Positions 3,263 through 16,468 of a stretch of 27,114 nucleotides of DNA are shown piece after piece. The stretch covers positions 1 to 27,114 of IMG/VR virus record IMGVR_UViG_3300013125_000039. The stretch is one strand, 5' to 3'. The stretch comes from a virus. The position numbers and the translations under genes were made by a program. The notes beneath the pieces are model-generated. The model ran no database searches, was not told where the DNA came from, and saw nothing but the letters and a program-made list of their open reading frames with translations. Numbering within the stretch: the stretch's first letter is position 1; every line of letters starts with the position of its first letter.

Positions 3263-3685
3263 TTAGATATTTTTATTCTCTTCTGAAGCTTTATTAAGTA
3301 AGTTTAATAAGTTACTATAACTTGTATTTTCAAGTGCCTTTTCTACAATATCATCAATAATAAGCTCTTCAGGTTCTCCAACCTTTTCTTTTATTGGATT
3401 TCCTGCCATTTTATTCATACTTTCAGTGCATTGTTTTTCAATAGCATACCTTTTTTTTCCTGTTTCAATGCTATCTTGAAACCATCCAGAGCGAAGCAAA
3501 TTGTAAATAGAATAACCACATTCCATACAATCTACATAACGAAGTTGAATGGTTGCAGGAATAATATGGTCTACATTTAGCGTTCCCATTTGAAATCTTT
3601 CAAAATCATCTTCTGTAAAAACAACATTATTTTTTCGTGATTCTATTGACCATTCTTTACCTCCACATACTGGACAAATTATCAT
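3263..3685 (-). CDS. Zinc-ribbon protein (140 aa)
   Basis: The protein opens with a zinc knuckle, CPVCGG (residues 4-9 from the chosen start), paired with CMECG about 50 residues later, as in a split zinc ribbon. The C-terminal third is acidic and helical. I chose ATG 3685, which overlaps the polymerase stop codon as ATGA and has GGAGG 8 nt upstream, over an in-frame TTG at 3700. The partner and function are unknown; its place between polymerase and helicase suggests a replication accessory role (inference). Confidence 0.7.
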   Translation of the reverse strand: MIICPVCGGKEWSIESRKNNVVFTEDDFERFQMGTLNVDHIIPATIQLRYVDCMECGYSIYNLLRSGWFQDSIETGKKRYAIEKQCTESMNKMAGNPIKEKVGEPEELIIDDIVEKALENTSYSNLLNLLNKASEENKNI

Positions 3686-6006
3686 TTCATATCCCTCCAA
3701 TTCATTCCTGATTTAATTTTAATGGGGATGAAAAATTCCCTTCCTCTTACATTTAAATCTACTCTCATACAACGATATAACTCTTTGTAAACAAGCTCTT
3801 TCTTTTCTGGTGGATGTTGAACAAGAAGAGAGTCATGAACCTGTAAAAGAATTTCTATGTCTTTGTGTTTACTACAAACTTCATTATAAAACCTAATTAA
3901 ACCAAGATTTAAAACACTTGCTACTGTTTCTTGCGGAGCGTATGCAATGGCTTCTTTGAAAAGCTTTTCTCCAATTCTATCAAAAAAGATTCTTTTCCTG
4001 CTAAGAGGAGTGATGATTGTCCTACTACGTTTAATTTCGTCTTCCACTCTTTTGTGCCATTTAACAAGATTAGGTGAAGCGTTGTAGTATTTTTGAATAA
4101 GTTTTTTAGCTTCTGCAGCTGTGATTCCAAGTTGTTCGGAAACAGTAACCCATGTGCCTTTATAATTACATGAATGGCGAATCCTTTTTGCTCGATAGTA
4201 AAGGCTTTCAGTTCCTCTGCCCTCATTTTCTTTTTCATTTTTGTCTTTATTGACTTCTTCATCACTTACCCCCCATATAAGATTTGCAGTATAAGTATGA
4301 ACACTTTTTCCGCTATTCATAATATTAATAAGCTGGTCATCTTGGCAAAAATAAGCAACAACCCTTGCTTCAGCTCCATCAAGGTCACACTCTGTAAACA
4401 TCATTCCTTCATCTGGAATAATCATATCTCGAATTTTCTGAGGAAAGTTTTGAAGATTTCTTCCACTTCCAAAAACACTTTCAGAGGAAGAAAGCCTACC
4501 TGTTTCTGTTCCTGTGGAATTGAATGAGCAGCGTATTCTATTATCAACACTGTCAACATCCATTTCAATATAGTTTGAAATGATTGTTCTTTCATTCCTT
4601 ATTGAAATAATGTTATTTAATTCAGGACTTTTTTTGCTTAACCTTTCAAGAGCCTTCTTGTTTGTGGTAGGCTTTCCTGTCTTTTTGTTTATAGGAACAT
4701 CTAAGCCAAGCTTTGTGATTAACGCAGAAACTTGTTTTGGAGAAGATGGATTAACATCTCCATAAACTTCTTTCAATCCTTCAATTTTTTGTTTCATTTG
4801 AGGAATAAGAACTTTGCGATACTCTTCCCTTTTTGCTTCGTCAAAGCGAAGCCCTCTAAGCATCATGTAAAGCAAAGGTTCTACAAGTTCCATCATAAAG
4901 TTAAAGGTATGGCGGACACCTAAGTCGTCTATTTCTTTTTCAAGAGCTTCTTTAACTTCATAAGTAACTGCTGCATCACGAGCATTATATCTCCAAAGCA
5001 TTTGAAGATTAGAGACTTCAGCTTGCCATATATGAAGGTCATCTTTATAATAAGGTTCATTTGTATAAAGAGAAGCAAGAAAGCCAAGTCCTTTAGGCAT
5101 CTCAGAATAACAGCTGTGTTGTGCAATCATAGTATCATACCAGGGTTTAGATGGAAGAATTTTAAAGGCTCTAAATAAGTATTGAATGTCAAATGAAATA
5201 TTTTGACCGACTTTTGTAAGTTCAGGTCTTGTTAAAAGCCATTCAAGAGTATCAAGAACCTTTTTCAATGAAGACATTTCACCCCAATAAGCTTTGGTTG
5301 TGGGAATACTTATAGCTTCATTCTTAGAAAAAGCAATACTGCAACAGGTAATAAGATTGTGGGATGTTTCTATATCGTAGGTTAAAAATGGTTGTTTCAA
5401 GTTGAAACATGCATTGTAACCCTTTGAAACAAATGATTCAATATCTCCATAAGTGGGTTCAATAATTAAGTTTCTTTGGGGAAGAAGGACTTCTGGAAAT
5501 GCTGATTGCTCCAAAGCTTTCTTAAAGTCACGTGAAACAATAGCTCCAAAACTCCATTGACGTAATACCGCTGCAGGGTGGTATGTTCCAATGGTTTTAA
5601 CAACTCTTCCAGAAGGCAACTTACATTCCATAATACTTCCACGCCATTTTCCAATACTTGACTGACCTGTTAAAGCCCAAAGAGCATTTGAGCCAAGAGC
5701 AATGAAAATGTTTGCTTTAGAAGCTTCAAGCTCATTCAGCAATTCGTCTCTTGCTTGAAGTAATTCTGGTTTTGGAATATGCTTTTTCCAATAGATTGAA
5801 AAGTCGTTTCCAGGAGGTCTTGTCTTTACAACATTAGTTATGTAACACTCTTGACGAGCTACCCCTATTGTATGAAGTTTCATATTAAGAATATTTCCTG
5901 ATTGACCACAGAAAGGTCTTCCTTCAAGCTCTTCTGTCATGCCAGGTGCTTCCCCAATTATAGCAATATTGCTTGAAAGAGAACCTTCTGGAGGAACTAT
6001 TATCAT
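3682..6006 (-). CDS. Family A DNA polymerase with N-terminal uracil-DNA glycosylase domain and 3'-5' exonuclease
   Basis: 774 residues, three domains. Residues 1-170 match a family 4/5-type uracil-DNA glycosylase: GEAPG (18-22), GRPFCGQSG (29-37), TNVVKTRPPGN (57-67) and HPAAVLR (143-149). Residues 205-350 are a DnaQ-type exonuclease: DIE (211-213), Exo II with D273, Exo III YNARD (D344). Residues 370-774 are the polymerase: motif A CDLDGAEAR (540-548), a motif B region near 605-617 ending HSCNYKG, and motif C QVHDS (722-726). The CxxC cysteines that start the Fe-S site of family 4 glycosylases are absent. This is the replicative polymerase of the phage. It overlaps both neighbours by ATGA. 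Similar glycosylase-polymerase fusions are known in some phages, for example SPO1-like. Confidence 0.95.
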   Translation of the reverse strand: MIIVPPEGSLSSNIAIIGEAPGMTEELEGRPFCGQSGNILNMKLHTIGVARQECYITNVVKTRPPGNDFSIYWKKHIPKPELLQARDELLNELEASKANIFIALGSNALWALTGQSSIGKWRGSIMECKLPSGRVVKTIGTYHPAAVLRQWSFGAIVSRDFKKALEQSAFPEVLLPQRNLIIEPTYGDIESFVSKGYNACFNLKQPFLTYDIETSHNLITCCSIAFSKNEAISIPTTKAYWGEMSSLKKVLDTLEWLLTRPELTKVGQNISFDIQYLFRAFKILPSKPWYDTMIAQHSCYSEMPKGLGFLASLYTNEPYYKDDLHIWQAEVSNLQMLWRYNARDAAVTYEVKEALEKEIDDLGVRHTFNFMMELVEPLLYMMLRGLRFDEAKREEYRKVLIPQMKQKIEGLKEVYGDVNPSSPKQVSALITKLGLDVPINKKTGKPTTNKKALERLSKKSPELNNIISIRNERTIISNYIEMDVDSVDNRIRCSFNSTGTETGRLSSSESVFGSGRNLQNFPQKIRDMIIPDEGMMFTECDLDGAEARVVAYFCQDDQLINIMNSGKSVHTYTANLIWGVSDEEVNKDKNEKENEGRGTESLYYRAKRIRHSCNYKGTWVTVSEQLGITAAEAKKLIQKYYNASPNLVKWHKRVEDEIKRSRTIITPLSRKRIFFDRIGEKLFKEAIAYAPQETVASVLNLGLIRFYNEVCSKHKDIEILLQVHDSLLVQHPPEKKELVYKELYRCMRVDLNVRGREFFIPIKIKSGMNWRDMK

Positions 6007-6245
6007 TTTGTATCTCCTTTGGGTATTTTATTTTGGAGTTCTCTTAGATAACTATACAAGTGTAGAACATTATATGACGCTTCTCTCATAAACCCAATTA
6101 TGTATGGATTAACAGAACCCGCATCTTTAAAAATCTGAGACATAGACATTTGACGTAAAAGCTCAGATATTCCTGCAACGCTAAAGCAAAGCTGGTTTAT
6201 GTTTTGCCATTTATTTCTTGAAAGCTTAGTCCTTTTTCTTTTCAT
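6003..6245 (-). CDS. Small hypothetical protein (80 aa)
   Basis: A basic N-terminus (MKRKRTKLSRNKW) is followed by amphipathic helices. No known family is recognised. The TGA overlaps the polymerase ATG, and its own ATG overlaps the stop of the gene upstream, so it is embedded in the translationally coupled replication operon. The basic start could bind nucleic acid, but this is only a guess. Confidence 0.6.
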   Translation of the reverse strand: MKRKRTKLSRNKWQNINQLCFSVAGISELLRQMSMSQIFKDAGSVNPYIIGFMREASYNVLHLYSYLRELQNKIPKGDTK

Positions 6246-6436
6246 TTAAATTTTCTCCTTTTAGAGAGTTTCTTTTCTGCTTTGGAAAGCTTGTTTTGTG
6301 CTTTCCCTATATTAAATGTTCCACCAGAATAAAACATTCGTGGTCTGCCATCTTCTTCCCAAAAGTTCTCTTTTTGGCATCCATATTTTTCACAATTCTT
6401 CTTTTTACATTCTTTTCCTGTCATTACACATTGCAT
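6242..6436 (-). CDS. Small cysteine-rich protein (64 aa)
   Basis: Five cysteines fall in the first 20 residues (CVMTGKECKKKNCEKYGC), followed by a Lys-rich tail, which suggests a small metal-binding domain. The ATG at 6436 has GGAGG 9 nt upstream. A second in-frame ATG at 6424 would instead overlap the upstream stop as TAATG. The overlap of 13 nt with the upstream gene argues for coupling. Function unknown. Confidence 0.6.
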   Translation of the reverse strand: MQCVMTGKECKKKNCEKYGCQKENFWEEDGRPRMFYSGGTFNIGKAQNKLSKAEKKLSKRRKFK

Positions 6437-6630
6437 TTACATTGTCCTCCATAAGAAAAATCTTTATAGGGTTTTCCAGTAGTTATATCACAAACTGAAT
6501 GCTGTCTTATAAGACATCCATCCCAAAATAGATATTTAGGTGAATAAAACTTACAGTTTGATTTAATCGTAGGGCAAAAGCTAATTGGTTCTGAAAGAAT
6601 AGTTTTTAAAGCTTCTTTTTTATTTAACAT
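6424..6630 (-). CDS. Small cysteine-rich protein (68 aa)
   Basis: Six cysteines are spread over residues 19-66 (FCPTIKSNC, DGC, SVC, QCKC), with tyrosine-rich spacing, resembling a small zinc or Fe-S binding protein. The neighbouring gene downstream is also Cys-rich and overlaps it, so the two may act together (inference). No family recognised. Confidence 0.6.
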   Translation of the reverse strand: MLNKKEALKTILSEPISFCPTIKSNCKFYSPKYLFWDGCLIRQHSVCDITTGKPYKDFSYGGQCKCNV

Positions 6631-6631
6631 T

Positions 6632-7945
6632 TTAATTTCCTCCTATAAGGTCTGCCATTCCTGCATCTTTCATTTTTAAGGCTTTTGCTACATTAGAAAG
6701 AGCTATACTATGGTATTTCATATCAAGCTCAAAGCCTATAGGCTTACACCCCCTTTTTAATGCTGCAATTAAAGTTGAGCCACATCCACACATTGGGTCA
6801 AGGATGATATGACCAGGCAAGCATAGCCTTGAGATTAAATCTTCAAGAAGGTCAGAAGGTTTTTGTGAGGGATGCTCTCTGTTAACAGTAGGAACTCCTG
6901 CATAGTTTAAAACATTGGTAGTTCCTTGCTTTGTAAGAACAGCATCACCTCTAAGTCCATAAACAAAAAGGTCATAGCAGCGATTAAAATATTTCTCAGG
7001 TCTATTTGTTCTTCCTGTATTTGCACCCCTAACCCATACCCCTGGAATAACATCCATTGAAAAGCCCTCTTTACTCCAAAGGTCTATAAGAAATTGGGCA
7101 TTTTGAAATCCACAAAACATAAGGACAGCCGAATTATGTTTAAGAACTTTAGAAGCTTTTTGAATAAGAGTTGTAAGTGTTTCAACAAAATTTTCTTTTG
7201 TGTCATCATACTTGTCTTGATAAGACAAATCAGGAAGGTCTCTATTTTCAAATCTCGTGTTAAACACATCAATTCCATAAATCGGGTCTGAGATAAGGGC
7301 GTTTATAGAGTTTACTGGAAGAGCCTCTATAAGGTTATTACAATTACCAAAGAAGACTATGCTTTGAGCTTTCTTCCCATAATCTGTTTTGCTCTTTCTT
7401 AAAGCAAGTTCAGCTTTTGCTTCATCAATTTTATGCTTTTTAAAAGCCTTAATCGCTTGCTCTGTATTTTTACACCCTTCAAAAATTTCGGGTGTTGTTT
7501 CAAGAGCTTTAGAAAGAGAAATAGAGGTAGATAAACCTCTGATGTTTATTTTTGCAAACTCTGCTGTATCTCTATATCCCCAACCTTTTTGCTCTTTTGC
7601 AGAAAGAATTTTATGTAAGTCATCTAAAGCTTTTGCTTCTTCTTGCCAAGTGAATTGTTTTCTTTCTTTATTCTCCATAATCTCAAGAACTTTGTCATTA
7701 AGGGATGCGTCTGTTTCTACAATAGCCCTAACCTTAATTCCAAGCTCTTTACATGCACGAGTTCTTCTTTCACCTGCAATAAGAATAAATGTTCCATCAG
7801 TTTTTTGCCTTACTTGTATAGGGGTAATATTCTTTCCTGTAAGTTTAATAGCATCTTTAAGAGAATCAAGGTCACCCATATCTTTTCGGTATCTATCGTG
7901 TTCAATAATAATTTCGTTTGGGTCAAGCTCAAGAATTTGCTCCAT
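6632..7945 (-). CDS. ParB-like nuclease domain fused to a beta-class DNA (N4/N6) methyltransferase
   Basis: 437 residues. The N-terminal ~100 residues carry the ParB/sulfiredoxin-type motif IAGERRTRACKELG and the ENKERKQFTW segment of the ParB N-terminal domain. A helical DNA-binding middle follows. The C-terminal half is an amino-methyltransferase with motif IV first (DPIYG near 221, a DPPY variant), HPSQKP near 360 and the S-adenosylmethionine motif DPMCGCGST near 384. This order is the beta class. It would methylate adenine N6 or cytosine N4, perhaps to shield phage DNA or mark its origin. I chose ATG 7945 with GGAG 8 nt upstream over an adjacent TTG. ParB-methylase fusions recur in phages; the target site is unknown. 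Confidence 0.9.
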   Translation of the reverse strand: MEQILELDPNEIIIEHDRYRKDMGDLDSLKDAIKLTGKNITPIQVRQKTDGTFILIAGERRTRACKELGIKVRAIVETDASLNDKVLEIMENKERKQFTWQEEAKALDDLHKILSAKEQKGWGYRDTAEFAKINIRGLSTSISLSKALETTPEIFEGCKNTEQAIKAFKKHKIDEAKAELALRKSKTDYGKKAQSIVFFGNCNNLIEALPVNSINALISDPIYGIDVFNTRFENRDLPDLSYQDKYDDTKENFVETLTTLIQKASKVLKHNSAVLMFCGFQNAQFLIDLWSKEGFSMDVIPGVWVRGANTGRTNRPEKYFNRCYDLFVYGLRGDAVLTKQGTTNVLNYAGVPTVNREHPSQKPSDLLEDLISRLCLPGHIILDPMCGCGSTLIAALKRGCKPIGFELDMKYHSIALSNVAKALKMKDAGMADLIGGN

Positions 7946-7960
7946 CAAATTTTCTCCTTT

Positions 7961-8194
7961 TTATTGAGTAAGCTTTTTTAAAAGTTCTGCAAGTTTCTCT
8001 TTTGGGATTGATTTTACAAAATCATCAATTTGTCTGTCTTGATTTGATTTCACCTCCTTTTTCTTTTTACCATTTCTTTCTCCGCTTGGTGACGGTTTCT
8101 GCACCTTACTTCTTGTAAGCATTGAAATTTGAGCTTCAAGCTCTTCATCTGAAAGGTCTTTTACACTTCTTCCAAGCAAATCTTGAAGGTTCAT
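7961..8194 (-). CDS. Small hypothetical protein (77 aa)
   Basis: A short helical N-terminus (LQDLLGRSVKDLSDEELEAQI), a basic Lys-rich linker and a C-terminal amphipathic helix. The ATG overlaps the TGA of the upstream gene as ATGA. It sits directly before the ParB-methyltransferase gene. No family recognised. Confidence 0.6.
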   Translation of the reverse strand: MNLQDLLGRSVKDLSDEELEAQISMLTRSKVQKPSPSGERNGKKKKEVKSNQDRQIDDFVKSIPKEKLAELLKKLTQ

Positions 8195-8364
8195 TTTTTG
8201 TCTCCTTCAATGAAACACCATGGACTTGCTCCGTTCTTTACATCTTGCACATACTTCTTTACAAGCTTTCTGACAACAAAGGAAACCATGCGTGTTTCAG
8301 GAAGAATTTTTTTCAGCTCTCTTATGGTTTCTTTGTCTACGTCAACATGAAGTTGATGATTCAT
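8191..8364 (-). CDS. Small ribbon-helix-helix-like protein (57 aa)
   Basis: ATG at 8364, stop at 8191. The start overlaps the stop of the TSCPD gene, and its own stop overlaps the next ATG, both as ATGA, with GGAGGAG just upstream. The sequence has a short beta segment (HQLHVDVD) followed by two helices around SFVVRKLVKKYV, the spacing seen in Arc/CopG-type ribbon-helix-helix DNA-binding proteins. A role as a small phage repressor is plausible but not shown. Confidence 0.6.
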   Translation of the reverse strand: MNHQLHVDVDKETIRELKKILPETRMVSFVVRKLVKKYVQDVKNGASPWCFIEGDKK

Positions 8365-8696
8365 TTCTCCTCCTTCTTAGGTGAATTTATTACCTCATTA
8401 TAAACAGTATTCATTAAAATGAATCTGCATGATTGTCTTTGAAATTGACAAACATTTCCTTTAGCTTTATTAATAATTTCAATCTGCTGACTTCTTGTTA
8501 GTTTTAAAAGCCCTTCAAACATAGCATTCATGTCTTTCATAACTGCTGCAGCGCATCCTCCTGCCTTTCCCATGCTTACGTTAATCCATAAAAGGTCTTC
8601 AGAATCGGCTTGTCGAGCAAAGGTGATATAAAGATTTCCACATGCAGACATTTTTTTGTAAGTAATAGATGGAAATAAAATACCCTCTTTAATCAT
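8361..8696 (-). CDS. TSCPD-domain protein (ribonucleotide-reductase C-terminal-type domain, stand-alone)
   Basis: 111 residues. The segment CGNLYITF followed by a GKAGGCAAA motif (about residues 44-52) and a C-terminal KGNVCQFQRQSC matches the layout of the TSCPD domain found at the C-terminus of class II (NrdJ) reductases and as stand-alone phage proteins. No reductase catalytic subunit lies in the window. A regulatory or metal-binding role in nucleotide metabolism is possible. It overlaps the genes on both sides by 4-8 nt. The assignment rests on motif recall. Confidence 0.6.
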   Translation of the reverse strand: MIKEGILFPSITYKKMSACGNLYITFARQADSEDLLWINVSMGKAGGCAAAVMKDMNAMFEGLLKLTRSQQIEIINKAKGNVCQFQRQSCRFILMNTVYNEVINSPKKEEK

Positions 8697-9012
8697 TTCT
8701 TTCCTTTCTTTTTACTTCTGAAATCCACCAAGTTTTTGTGTTTGGTTTAAATCTTAAATATGAAACTCCATCAATATCAAGGTTAAACGCTCTTCCTTTT
8801 TTAATTTCATCTCTAAGCTCTTCTATGGTAATTGAACATTGCAAAACTTTTGGGTCTTGTGTAAAATTGTCTTTAAGAAAAAATATAAGTAAGAATAAGA
8901 CAAAAATGAATATAAGACAAAGAGAAGAATAAGAGCAGAAAGAAGAAGCATAGGTAGACAATAACTTACTCCCTCTTCTTTTTATTTGGAGAAACTTTCT
9001 GCTCTTTTTCAT
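8689..9012 (-). CDS. Small single-pass membrane protein (107 aa)
   Basis: A basic N-terminus is followed by one clear transmembrane segment (LCLIFIFVLFLLIFFL, about residues 32-47), then a polar C-terminal domain containing ITIEELRDEIKKGRAFNLD. I chose ATG 9012, just after the upstream TAG; an in-frame TTG lies 12 nt earlier. The positive-inside rule suggests an N-in, C-out topology. Function unknown; its place between replication genes is unusual for a lysis protein. Confidence 0.6.
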   Translation of the reverse strand: MKKSRKFLQIKRRGSKLLSTYASSFCSYSSLCLIFIFVLFLLIFFLKDNFTQDPKVLQCSITIEELRDEIKKGRAFNLDIDGVSYLRFKPNTKTWWISEVKRKERND

Positions 9013-13447: not shown

Positions 13448-13639
13448 TTAATCCTTGTTTTCAAATCCACATTCAGGGCAAATATTTGCTGTGTCTAAAT
13501 CAAATGGTTCAAAAGTGCCATATTCAAAAATACCTTCAACAAACCATTCTGCAGAGCATTTAGAACAGACATAAGCTACATTTGCATATTGCTTTCGTGG
13601 ATTTTCTATATGACTATCAAAATCATTGAATGTTGTCAT
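13448..13639 (-). CDS. Zinc-ribbon protein (63 aa)
   Basis: From ATG 13639 (MTTFNDFDSH) with AAGGAAG upstream. CSKC (residues 25-28) and CPEC (54-57) form a compact zinc ribbon, with an aromatic acidic stretch between. The frame stays open upstream through the hexamer array as a Val-Arg/Met repeat, but the ribosome site and the zinc-ribbon length support this start. The ATG overlaps the stop of the repeat-coded frame at 13636-13872 as ATGA. Confidence 0.7.
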   Translation of the reverse strand: MTTFNDFDSHIENPRKQYANVAYVCSKCSAEWFVEGIFEYGTFEPFDLDTANICPECGFENKD

Positions 13640-13872
13640 TTCTTCTTCCTTAACCATGACCTTGACCATGACCATGACCTTAACCCTGACCCTGACCCTA
13701 ACCATGACCCTGACCCTGACCCTGACCCTGACCATGACCTTGACCATGACTTTAACCCTGACCTTGACCATGACCATGACCTTAACCCTGACCCTGACCA
13801 TGACCTTGACTTTGACGTTGACCCTGACCATGACCCTGACCCTAAAAATCCTGCGAGAACACTTGCCTTCAT
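13636..13872 (-). CDS. Hexamer-encoded Ser-repeat protein, unit 1 (78 aa)
   Basis: The start is MKASVLAGFLGS, with GGAG 6 nt before the ATG inside the conserved core (13841-13884). Every second residue is then Ser or Leu, alternating with Gly, Trp, Arg or Lys, translated from 32 hexamers without an indel, and the frame ends WLRKKK. The stop overlaps the ATG of the zinc-ribbon gene and the start overlaps the stop of unit 2, both as ATGA. That geometry, the ribosome site and three further copies are the evidence for translation; the low-complexity sequence alone is not. The function is unknown. Another frame of the same strand is also open. Confidence 0.45.
   Translation of the reverse strand: MKASVLAGFLGSGSWSGSTSKSRSWSGSGLRSWSWSRSGLKSWSRSWSGSGSGSGSWLGSGSGLRSWSWSRSWLRKKK
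13649..13840. repeat. Hexanucleotide array A1, 32 units
   Basis: Uninterrupted hexamers on the plus strand with consensus CCTGAC and variants CATGAC, CTTGAC, CCTAAC, CTTAAC, TTTAAC, TTTGAC and GTTGAC. No partial unit occurs. Four C-tracts at 13708-13728 make a canonical G-quadruplex motif on the minus (mRNA) strand with TCA loops. The array lies between core 1 and the start of the zinc-ribbon gene. Confidence 0.95.
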
Positions 13873-13884
13873 CTTTGACTCCAA
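13841..13884 (-). repeat. Conserved 44-bp core, copy 1
   Basis: Identical over 44 bp to copy 2 at 14065-14108. On the minus strand it holds GGAGTCAAAG followed by ATGA, then the codons for KASVLAGFL. It therefore carries the end of one repeat frame and the ribosome site and start of the next. Confidence 0.9.
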
Positions 13885-14096
13885 CCTGACCCTGACCATG
13901 ACCATGACCTTGACCCTAACCATAACCCTGACCCTGACCCTGACCATGACCCTGACCCTAACCCTGACTTTGACCCTGACCATGACCCTGACCTTGACCC
14001 TGACCATGACCATGACCCTGACCCTAACCCTGACCCTGACCATGACCTTGACCCTGACCTTGACCCTAAAAATCCTGCGAGAACACTTGCCTTCAT
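13869..14096 (-). CDS. Hexamer-encoded Ser-repeat protein, unit 2 (75 aa)
   Basis: Starts MKASVLAGFLGS from core 2, runs through 30 hexamers as alternating Ser with Gly, Trp, Arg, Leu or Lys, and ends GSGWSQR. Its TGA overlaps the ATG of unit 1. It is the first unit after the 120-bp gap behind the HNH-like gene, so it needs read-through or a local promoter. The evidence and doubts are as for unit 1. The ending WSQR resembles the RSQK end of the gene at 14991-15350, which suggests that the tail of that gene was copied with the unit. Confidence 0.45.
   Translation of the reverse strand: MKASVLAGFLGSRSGSRSWSGSGLGSGSWSWSGSRSGSWSGSKSGLGSGSWSGSGSGLWLGSRSWSWSGSGWSQR
13885..14064. repeat. Hexanucleotide array A2, 30 units
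   Basis: Thirty consecutive hexamers of the CCTGAC family, including CCTAAC, CATAAC and TTTGAC variants, with no indel. It lies between cores 1 and 2. Confidence 0.95.
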
Positions 14097-14108
14097 CTTT
14101 GACTCCAA
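14065..14108 (-). repeat. Conserved 44-bp core, copy 2
   Basis: Perfect copy of core 1. Upstream on the minus strand it borders unique sequence (AGAGGTAACAATTTGGAG) rather than another array, so it marks one end of the repeat block. Confidence 0.9.
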
Positions 14109-14133
14109 ATTGTTACCTCTTCTTTCTTTTTTC

Positions 14134-14158
14134 TGGTGTGCCTACTATTGACACACCA
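14134..14158 (+). terminator. Hairpin with T-rich tail, possible plus-strand terminator
   Basis: TGGTGTG (14134-14140) pairs with CACACCA (14152-14158) over an 11-nt loop and is followed by AAATTTTTGTTTT. Its right arm overlaps the -35 box of the promoter at 14148-14176, so the two functions may compete. Read on the minus strand the hairpin is followed by an A-rich run and would not terminate. Confidence 0.35.
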
Positions 14159-14176
14159 AAATTTTTGTTTTATGAT
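14148..14176 (+). promoter_or_regulatory. Sigma70-type promoter, plus strand, antisense to the HNH-like gene
   Basis: TTGACA (14148-14153), a 17-nt spacer and TATGAT (14171-14176). The operator-like 21-mer starts 2 nt after the -10 box, exactly as in the minus-strand promoter at 13404-13432. No plus-strand gene follows. Transcripts would run antisense into the gene at 14217-14645 and perhaps the second repeat block. Confidence 0.6.
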
Positions 14177-14178
14177 TG

Positions 14179-14199
14179 TTTCAGTTTGAAACAGTCATT
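14179..14199 (+). promoter_or_regulatory. Operator-like 21-mer, copy 2
   Basis: Ends CAGTTTGAAACAGTCATT and matches copy 1 (13381-13401, opposite strand) at 20 of 21 positions. Within it GTTTC (14178-14182) and GAAAC (14188-14192) form a short dyad. Confidence 0.6.
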
Positions 14200-14216
14200 A
14201 GTTAAACGCAATCACT

Positions 14217-14645
14217 TTAACTTGGCTCTTTATTTATCTCATCCACGATTTCTTTAGCTTCTTTCAAAATTCTTGCTTTTTCACCAATAAGTTGCCCCCT
14301 TTCACAAATTTCAATATTCTCTCTTTGCATATTGTATTTATCACCATCTTTAAACTTTACAATATGGTTATGACTTAGAGAAGTTTCTGATTTGTTTGCC
14401 CATATTCTTTGAGCAATTAAGCGATGAAGTTGCATCAAAAATCGCTTTCCTTTGCTTGATTTTGTCTTGCTTCGTGCGATGACCGCACCTTTAAACAAAA
14501 CCCATGACTCGTCTGTTAAGTCTACGTCCTCATCTGAAATCTTGATAAGTTTCCCATTAGGATTCCAATTTTCTGGAAGAAATGAATCATTTTCTTGGTT
14601 TTGTTTAATTGGTTCATTACCACCTATTGCTATAAGGTATTTCAT
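14217..14645 (-). CDS. HNH/AP2-type endonuclease-like protein (142 aa), degenerate
   Basis: Start MKYLIAIGG at ATG 14645, with AAGGAG upstream and the ATG overlapping the stop of repeat unit 3 as ATGA. The middle (GKRFLMQLHRLIAQRIW) followed by HNHIVKFKDGDKYNMQRENIEI has the shape of phage HNH homing-type nucleases, whose usual form is VDHxNGDxLNNRxENL. The central Asp-His and the metal-binding His are partly replaced, so activity is doubtful. It separates the two repeat blocks (units 4-3 and 2-1), as if inserted between them. It could instead be a DNA-binding AP2-like protein. Confidence 0.6.
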   Translation of the reverse strand: MKYLIAIGGNEPIKQNQENDSFLPENWNPNGKLIKISDEDVDLTDESWVLFKGAVIARSKTKSSKGKRFLMQLHRLIAQRIWANKSETSLSHNHIVKFKDGDKYNMQRENIEICERGQLIGEKARILKEAKEIVDEINKEPS

Positions 14646-14788
14646 GATGAATAACTCCTTGACCTTGACCATGACCCTAACCATAACCCTGACCCTAACC
14701 ATGACCCTGACCTTGACCCTGACCATGACCATGACCCTGACCCTGACCATGACTTTAGAAGTCCTATTGCAAGAACACTTGCCTTCAT
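14642..14788 (-). CDS. Hexamer-encoded Ser-repeat protein, unit 3 (48 aa)
   Basis: Starts MKASVLAIGLLKS with GGAG 6 nt before the ATG. Compared with the other units it has an in-frame 3-nt insertion, a synonymous Leu change and conservative changes after VLA, which fits coding constraint. Sixteen hexamers follow, ending SRSRSYSS. The stop overlaps the ATG of the HNH-like gene and the start overlaps the stop of unit 4, both as ATGA. Function unknown. Confidence 0.45.
   Translation of the reverse strand: MKASVLAIGLLKSWSGSGSWSWSGSRSGSWLGSGLWLGSWSRSRSYSS
14658..14753. repeat. Hexanucleotide array A3, 16 units
   Basis: Sixteen CCTGAC-family hexamers without indels; the shortest of the four arrays. 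The last minus-strand unit runs straight into the AAGGAG ribosome site of the HNH-like gene. Confidence 0.95.
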
Positions 14789-14800
14789 CTTTGACTCCAA
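14754..14800 (-). repeat. Conserved core, copy 3 (47 bp, diverged)
   Basis: Shares the ribosome site, ATGA and the KASVL codons with cores 1 and 2 but carries a 3-nt insertion and several substitutions in the part joining the array. Confidence 0.85.
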
Positions 14801-14994
14801 CCTGACCATGACCATGACCCTGACCCTGACCATGACCATGACCCTAACCCTAACCCTGACCCTGACCATGACCATGACCCTAACCCTGACCTTGACTTTG
14901 ACCCTGACCATGACCCTGGCCATGACCCTGACCTTGACCCTGACCTTGACCCTGGTCTTGACCCTAAAAATCCTGCAAGAACACTTGCCCTCAT
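14785..14994 (-). CDS. Hexamer-encoded Ser-repeat protein, unit 4 (69 aa)
   Basis: Starts MRASVLAGFLGSRPGS at ATG 14994, whose first bases overlap the TGA of the conserved phage gene at 14991-15350. It runs through 27 hexamers and ends SGWSQR, overlapping unit 3. Being joined directly to an ordinary gene, and having array units altered to CCTGGC and CCTGGT (Ser to Pro), it may be the founder copy. The evidence for translation is as for unit 1. Confidence 0.45.
   Translation of the reverse strand: MRASVLAGFLGSRPGSRSGSRSGSWPGSWSGSKSRSGLGSWSWSGSGLGLGSWSWSGSGSWSWSGWSQR
14801..14962. repeat. Hexanucleotide array A4, 27 units
   Basis: Twenty-seven hexamers without indels. At 14842-14862 four consecutive CCC tracts give a minus-strand G-quadruplex motif that includes two GGGTTA units, the vertebrate telomere repeat. 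Confidence 0.95.
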
Positions 14995-15004
14995 TTTTGA
15001 CTCC
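14963..15004 (-). repeat. Conserved core, copy 4, fused to the 3' end of an upstream gene
   Basis: Matches cores 1 and 2 with a few substitutions up to GGAGTCAAA, where it merges with the codons for the C-terminal RSQK of the gene at 14991-15350. Confidence 0.85.
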
Positions 15005-15350
15005 GTGGAAGTATTAATCCCCATGGTCTGACAATCACGTTTGCAGACCGAGATATGAAAACTAAACCATCAGGAAAAGGCTCAACCTCATTAAAAACAC
15101 CTGACTGCATAGCATTTGAGTAACTTCCTGTATCAGCTATCCATGCACACTGGTCAAGGATAAATTCAGTCTTAGTCAGTCCGACAAGCCTACCTGTAAA
15201 ATACTTTGTTACCTGTTCAAAGTAATACTTCTCCCCTATCACATAGGGGTATGTATCGCTTTCAGGTATTGTCGGAAGAACTGAGGATTTTTTAACGTAT
15301 TCCTCTCCATTCACTATAATCTCACATTCCAATTCTGCTTTTTTGCTCAT
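14991..15350 (-). CDS. Conserved phage hypothetical protein (119 aa)
   Basis: From ATG 15350 with AAGGAGG upstream, overlapping the upstream stop as ATGA. The segment YFTGRLVGLTKTEFILDQCAWIADTG, then EVEPFPDG and a C-terminal LPRSQK, match a phage protein family I recall from many unrelated phages, always of this length and without known function. The conserved C-terminus shows that the gene is complete although repeat unit 4 begins inside its stop codon. Confidence 0.7.
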   Translation of the reverse strand: MSKKAELECEIIVNGEEYVKKSSVLPTIPESDTYPYVIGEKYYFEQVTKYFTGRLVGLTKTEFILDQCAWIADTGSYSNAMQSGVFNEVEPFPDGLVFISRSANVIVRPWGLILPRSQK

Positions 15351-16128: not shown

Positions 16129-16208
16129 TCTTCCCCACCACCCGTAAGTCCACAATCGCAGTTTTGTATTGGCTCATATATTTCATTTCCTGCTGTGTCG
16201 TATATCAT
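16125..16208 (-). CDS. Tiny protein (27 aa) with CDCG motif
   Basis: ATG 16208 has GGAGG about 10 nt upstream and overlaps the stop of the hendecad-repeat gene as ATGA. The TGA at 16125 overlaps the next ATG the same way. Begins MIYDTAGNEIYEP and contains NCDCGL. The double overlap makes it likely to be translated despite its size; it may serve mainly to couple its neighbours. Confidence 0.5.
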   Translation of the reverse strand: MIYDTAGNEIYEPIQNCDCGLTGGGEE

Positions 16209-16468
16209 AATTTTTTAACCTCCTTTTTTTGTCGCTGCTGCCATAGCGCATCCAGCTGCGCCCCATACGCCTCATAAAGCGCATCTCTCTGCGCCTCATA
16301 AGCCTCGTAAAGTGCGTCTATCTGCGCCCCATACGCCTCACATAGCACATCTTTATACGCCTCGTAAGCTTTTTTTAGCTCGTCTGTCTGTGCCTCATAC
16401 GCCTCGCTAAGCGTCTCTGCCTGCGCCTTACATAATAATGTATCCATTTTTTTGCTCTCCTTCTTCAT
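16205..16468 (-). CDS. Hendecad-repeat coiled-coil protein (87 aa)
   Basis: Five 11-residue repeats of the form LYEAYEAQRDA (about residues 20-74) predict a right-handed or straight coiled coil, followed by a basic tail QQRQKKEVKK. The matching 33-bp DNA repeats have higher GC than their surroundings. Two starts are possible: ATG 16468 (GGAGGG, 6 nt away) and ATG 16447 (GGAG, 8 nt away). It is the first gene after the candidate origin region. It could be a structural or DNA-associated oligomer; function unknown. Confidence 0.6.
   Translation of the reverse strand: MKKESKKMDTLLCKAQAETLSEAYEAQTDELKKAYEAYKDVLCEAYGAQIDALYEAYEAQRDALYEAYGAQLDALWQQRQKKEVKKL

Follow-up and report, generated by a model that had tools for sequence, protein, structure and literature searches.

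Hexanucleotide arrays of a viral contig as candidate low-complexity genes in a phage cassette with a predicted Sm-like protein

Introduction

The window analyzed here, a stretch of 27,114 nucleotides from the IMG/VR virus record IMGVR_UViG_3300013125_000039, carries on its minus strand four hexanucleotide arrays, each open in a frame that alternates serine with a second residue (X). The locus raises the question of whether these arrays are genes and, if so, what their products might do. A sequence-only reading had proposed that they are translated as low-complexity Ser/Gly/Trp/Arg proteins whose length can change by two residues without loss of frame. Both proposals are supported by relatives of the locus, which also bring in three points absent from that reading: the arrays belong to a general cassette whose upstream gene is predicted to be Sm-like, they have a glycine version, and tandem units are found in other phages as well.

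Results

Four repeat units in a minus-strand operon

The features of the locus, in the order of transcription, are as follows.

14991..15350, minus strand: Sm-like gene (predicted fold), 119 aa, family A3, directly upstream of unit 1
14785..14994, minus strand: unit 1, leader MRASVLAGFLG and Ser-alternating array, 69 aa; its ATGA start overlaps the stop of the Sm-like gene
14642..14788, minus strand: unit 2, leader MKASVLAIGLLK and array, 48 aa; ATGA overlap with unit 1; 3-nt insertion in the leader
14217..14645, minus strand: HNH endonuclease gene between units 2 and 3 (PHROG 959, E 2.2e-5); its ATGA start overlaps the stop of unit 2
13869..14096, minus strand: unit 3, leader MKASVLAGFLG and array, 75 aa; start in intergenic DNA; SD GGAG
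13636..13872, minus strand: unit 4, leader MKASVLAGFLG and array, 78 aa; ATGA overlap with unit 3
13448..13639, minus strand: gene for a small zinc-ribbon-like protein, next in the operon, ATGA with unit 4; weak match to Pfam PF21817 CapR (E 8.9e-5, below the cut-off)

All four units share one layout, in which a leader M[KR]ASVLA precedes the Ser-alternating repeat and GGAG stands exactly 6 nt ahead of the ATG. ATGA is found at five junctions: gene/unit 1, unit 1/unit 2, unit 2/HNH gene, unit 3/unit 4 and unit 4/next gene. Units, spacing and junctions agree with what the sequence-only reading had described, as does its statement that no hexamer contains a frame-breaking indel; we count 104 hexamers across the four arrays against its 105, owing to slightly different trimming. 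Two of its descriptions hold in part. The units had been seen as chained stop to start, but the start copy of the unit at 14096 sits in an intergenic stretch past the HNH gene and has no overlapping upstream ORF, so that three of the four unit starts are ATGA overlaps. One unit had been said to differ by a 3-nt insertion and conservative codon changes. The insertion is present, in the unit at 14788-14642 (MKASVLAIGLLKS versus MKASVLAGFLGS), but the codon changes in the arrays are not mainly conservative: the X codons vary between Gly, Trp and Arg (GGG 48, TGG 32 and AGG 16 among the 104 hexamers), and Ser is replaced by Leu 15 times.

The Ser codons of the window arrays are nearly all TCA, and synonymous change is almost absent. 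A second forward frame of the arrays is stop-free as well, and the open Ser frame is therefore weak evidence of coding by itself; the spacer codon shows no synonymous change within the window, which suggests that the arrays may have arisen too recently for selection to be tested within them. Frame openness and within-window synonymous ratios were accordingly dropped as proof of coding because they are uninformative. A DNA similarity search of the region against known phages gave no match, and a scan for the exact core motif found no further viral contig with the motif.

A predicted Sm/LSm-like fold for the upstream protein

The 119-residue protein encoded directly upstream of unit 1 was modeled with AlphaFold2 (mean pLDDT 82, core above 90). 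Using Foldseek, the top 50 PDB matches to this model are almost all Sm/LSm proteins, the exceptions being chains of NatC complexes; the Sm/LSm chains match with a probability of about 1.0, a TM-score by target of mostly 0.5-0.79 and E-values of about 1e-3 to 3e-2. At the limits used, the gene matched no Sm/LSm sequence family, and a profile search gave no LSm chain. Because the Foldseek E-values are modest and an Sm sequence family match is lacking, the assignment is one of predicted fold similarity.

Two further protein families resemble the window family. The AlphaFold2 model of DUF6948 (PF22253; mean pLDDT 91) matches Sm/LSm structures nearly throughout, including 3by7, the crystal structure of an Sm-like protein from a phage-derived metagenomic sequence. 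The PF22253 HMM matches neither the window gene nor anything else in the window record; as judged by hhalign, DUF6948 aligns with the window family over the N-terminal half only (probability 59.9, E 8.7e-5), the predicted fold class being the same. The third family, A5, is homologous to the window family (hhalign probability 95.6, E 1.1e-8).

Repeat arrays follow the gene in three upstream families

A close relative of the window gene, on viral contig L009, is followed at the same place by a Ser-alternating ORF written with AGC codons, and a more distant relative, in phage MW202573, by one written with TCG codons. The window-family set comprises 59 viral loci from a profile search and MW202573, and a Ser-alternating ORF lies directly after the gene in 53 of these 60 loci (56 called by script, minus three false calls at L104, L106 and L155). 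These ORFs mostly start at -1 from the upstream stop and have leaders near MNAAILRTGFDxS, followed by (S[G/R/W])n. Most of eight genome-collection matches, all metagenome-assembled contigs, carry the same arrangement. Tandem leader-plus-array units also occur in other phages, many joined at -1, with six in L143 and up to 14 in L182, where they cluster at 5476-8952 (reverse strand coordinates).

On a related contig, the gene that precedes a (G[SYD])n array belongs to DUF6948. A DUF6948 profile search yielded 445 viral relatives, of which 80 were kept, and the A5 family was located by way of arrays that lacked the first upstream gene. By a uniform automatic count, a (G[S/Y/D])n ORF follows 64 of 69 DUF6948 genes and an (S[G/R/W])n ORF follows 62 of 70 A5 genes; the same count scored 35 of 55 window-family genes as followed by a Ser array, with some more in a neighbouring frame. 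Other genes of the same loci are followed by an array in 12 of 889 cases, several of which are displaced cassettes. The X position is R/G/W in Ser arrays and S/Y/D in Gly arrays. DUF6948 resembles the window gene in its predicted Sm-like fold and in the hexamer-array ORFs that follow it, and differs in that its arrays are Gly-based and mostly begin 10 nt before the upstream stop (55 cases). A minority of loci have no clear array, and Ser arrays also stand beside genes outside the three families. Two phages of the human gut encode proteins of 173 aa (L017, about 2310-2830) and 189 aa (L018, about 1780-2350) that are similar in their C-terminal regions and contain a short Gly array close to the N-terminus.

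Two arrangements were considered and rejected as general rules. A programmed frameshift fusing the Sm-like gene to its array is not general, since the offsets in the A5 family vary over all frames. A pairing of basic with acidic arrays by charge is contradicted by their distribution: DUF6948 occurs in one of 50 window-family records and the window family in two of 50 DUF6948 records, and as the two versions are rarely found in one genome, they are alternatives. One of those two DUF6948 records (L043 / L377), with its Sm-like gene of the window family, has the Ser cassette next to the Gly cassette.

Array length changes by whole dipeptides while residue order is shuffled

We compared arrays between near-identical loci, defined by an upstream identity of at least 80% and different arrays. 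Array length differed by a multiple of 6 nt in 31 of 31 such pairs, which are non-independent, 21 coming from seven phages. This is the in-frame length change by two residues that had been proposed from the window, and comparison with related genomes revealed no frame-broken arrays beside intact flanking genes. Eight isolated Pectobacterium/Dickeya phages have seven different arrays of 53-89 aa, similar in composition and shuffled in order; Ymer, Amona and Taid differ in their arrays but are identical over the final 240 nt of the gene upstream. The cultured phages with the cassette also include Iodobacter phage PhiPLPE. Because changes come in whole dipeptides, reading frame and composition persist while order turns over quickly.

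Arrays that are translated might have a role apart from the neighbouring gene, as silk-like or gel-forming structural material or as a fast-changing decoy against host defence. The X-residue order evolving much faster than the flanking gene, as in Ymer, Amona and Taid, would suit such roles, and the (GX)n alternation resembles silk fibroin motifs, which counts for a structural material. We nevertheless find these roles unlikely, as a stand-alone material or decoy leaves the tight linkage to the Sm-like gene unexplained.

The encoded residues are conserved and the hexamer is not

The main Ser codon varies by locus between TCG, TCA, TCT and AGC, which indicates that it is the encoded protein, and not the hexamer, that is conserved. 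TCN and AGY codons cannot be interchanged by one synonymous step. At least seven switches between them are needed in the window family and at least nine in the third family, as counted on quick, poorly resolved trees. L103 and L105, for example, have similar upstream proteins and arrays based on TCT and AGC, respectively. An iteron-like, DNA-binding array was ruled out on the same grounds, the hexamer being unconserved even between these close relatives. Ala codons number 11 in the Gly arrays, where independence of the first two codon positions would give 197. Within any one array the spacer codon is 93-97% uniform. We read this as arrays that are rapidly renewed by slippage, with selection acting on the encoded residues. 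In the Ser arrays of all families, TCG, TCA, TCT and AGC each occur as the main codon for Ser but TCC hardly ever does, perhaps because TCCNGG repeats would self-pair.

We consider it quite improbable that translation is incidental and that the arrays act as DNA or RNA, whether as a series of binding sites, as a tract prone to quadruplex formation or as an RNA bound by a ring of the Sm-like protein. The common Ser and Gly array types do present GG every 6 nt, the near-invariance of the spacer codon and the near-absence of synonymous change in the window are what a nucleic-acid function would predict, and the neighbouring protein has a predicted fold of an RNA-binding type. Against this, the hexamer varies (TCA, TCG, TCT and AGC, and the GGN series) while protein pattern, leader, SD and frame stay constant; the Ala depletion is a signal at the amino-acid level; and Gly arrays are also found within longer proteins.

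Still less probable is that the arrays are neutral or selfish slippage products tolerated in frame. They do grow and reshuffle fast, and a few loci are without them, but the leader, start geometry and residue alphabets are kept in all three upstream families and in many lineages of phages, and Ser repeats have been re-created with unrelated codons. An assembly artefact can practically be dismissed: the record is a viral contig from a metagenome, and short repeats pose difficulties for assembly, but hexamer order differs between the four window arrays, and isolated phages with complete genomes have homologous arrays.

With respect to the question raised by the locus, the Ser codons, leaders and 6-nt steps of the relatives' arrays strongly support, by comparison, that the window arrays are translated genes.

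Discussion

A proposed Sm-like cassette with low-complexity partners

The comparison of loci supports (i) coding constraint on the arrays, (ii) coupling to the upstream gene, (iii) in-frame length change and (iv) association with the Sm-like gene. The arrays are low-complexity members of a widespread cassette with a predicted Sm-like protein, and we propose that their products aid a putative RNA-protein assembly, an account that, taken as a whole, we hold to be evenly balanced between right and wrong. The cassette consists of a small predicted Sm/LSm-like protein followed by one to many translationally coupled dipeptide-repeat ORFs. In these, Ser or Gly is the spacer, and the other position holds an aromatic, a charged or a small residue: W, R or G where the spacer is Ser, and Y, D or S where it is Gly. 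Slippage of hexamers, together with unequal recombination, would alter length and order by whole dipeptides, and the repeat protein would act through its composition, as a multivalent sticker-and-spacer partner of the Sm-like protein, the two building an RNA-protein assembly or condensate during infection.

The residue alphabets, the shuffling of order and the in-frame length change fit a composition-driven sticker-and-spacer protein. That the arrays are composition-dependent, aromatic and charged partners of the Sm-like protein in an RNA-protein assembly is plausible to us, if somewhat short of an even chance; physical interaction, RNA binding and assembly are what we infer. A wider generalization is offered tentatively, and we would sooner doubt it than rely on it: many phage lineages may encode an Sm-like protein with hypervariable dipeptide-repeat proteins that form condensates, where order would be irrelevant and composition selected, strength would be tuned by hexamer gain or loss and by unit copying, and basic (S[W/R/G]) and acidic (G[Y/D/S]) arrays would be alternative solutions in different phages.

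Comparison with known systems

The proposed role in RNA-protein assembly draws on two precedents, Sm proteins such as Hfq that have a low-complexity partner in their own chain, and Arg-rich dipeptide repeats that are reported to phase separate. Hfq, the bacterial Sm protein, has a C-terminal amyloid region (PMC8468756). The likeness lies in the pairing of an Sm-fold protein with a segment of low complexity that associates with itself, the fold being predicted and the partnership and self-association putative for the phage proteins; Hfq carries the segment as a tail on its own chain, whereas the phage version is a separate, coupled gene with strict dipeptide repeats, often in several copies. 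The C9orf72 dipeptide-repeat proteins are encoded by a hexanucleotide, and some are arginine-rich, those being reported to phase separate (PMC8096919). The phage arrays likewise turn an in-frame hexanucleotide array into two-residue repeats, but their units have their own ATG and GGAG and so do not share the feature of repeat-associated non-AUG translation; they also have a mixed alphabet and recur across many phages, and are not a disease mutation.

Prion-like low-complexity domains of the FET type are described by a sticker-and-spacer model in which function follows composition (PMC9748015, PMC10850361). The phage arrays show this composition, with aromatic and charged residues and small Gly/Ser spacers; they differ in being viral, in forming a separate gene and in alternating strictly at every second residue, and are known here from sequence. 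Low-complexity segments are known in phages, and a survey of such regions in prokaryote and phage proteomes reports a strong deficit of W, Y, F and R (PMC6821194), whereas the cassette arrays are rich in aromatic residues and Arg. Searches of open-access PMC papers gave no mention of DUF6948 and no description of phage hexanucleotide arrays, of phage Sm-like proteins with low-complexity partners or of the repeat peptides. The cassette is apparently new to the literature and has the appearance of a viral protein-assembly module.

Dipeptide repeats translated from hexanucleotides are familiar chiefly from a disease mutation; here selection has apparently kept them next to a gene for a predicted Sm-like protein, and evidence from the codons indicates that the array protein matters. 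The phages offer a natural series of order-shuffled, length-varied repeat proteins, suited to asking if function depends on composition alone. DUF6948 and two phage families without a name gain a predicted structural class and a putative partner. If the assembly proposal is true, phages would possess an Sm-plus-low-complexity machinery comparable to eukaryotic RNA granules.

Other features of the window

Three further minus-strand genes were noted in the window. The DNA polymerase gene at 3682-6006 combines a family A polymerase with a 3'-5' exonuclease and, at the N-terminus, a uracil-DNA glycosylase domain in a single chain, and the gene at 6632-7948 encodes an N6/N4 DNA methyltransferase fused to a ParB N-terminal domain. 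A second repeat gene, at 16205-16468, is built from a 33/66-nt repeat encoding EAYxAQxDALY-type repeats.
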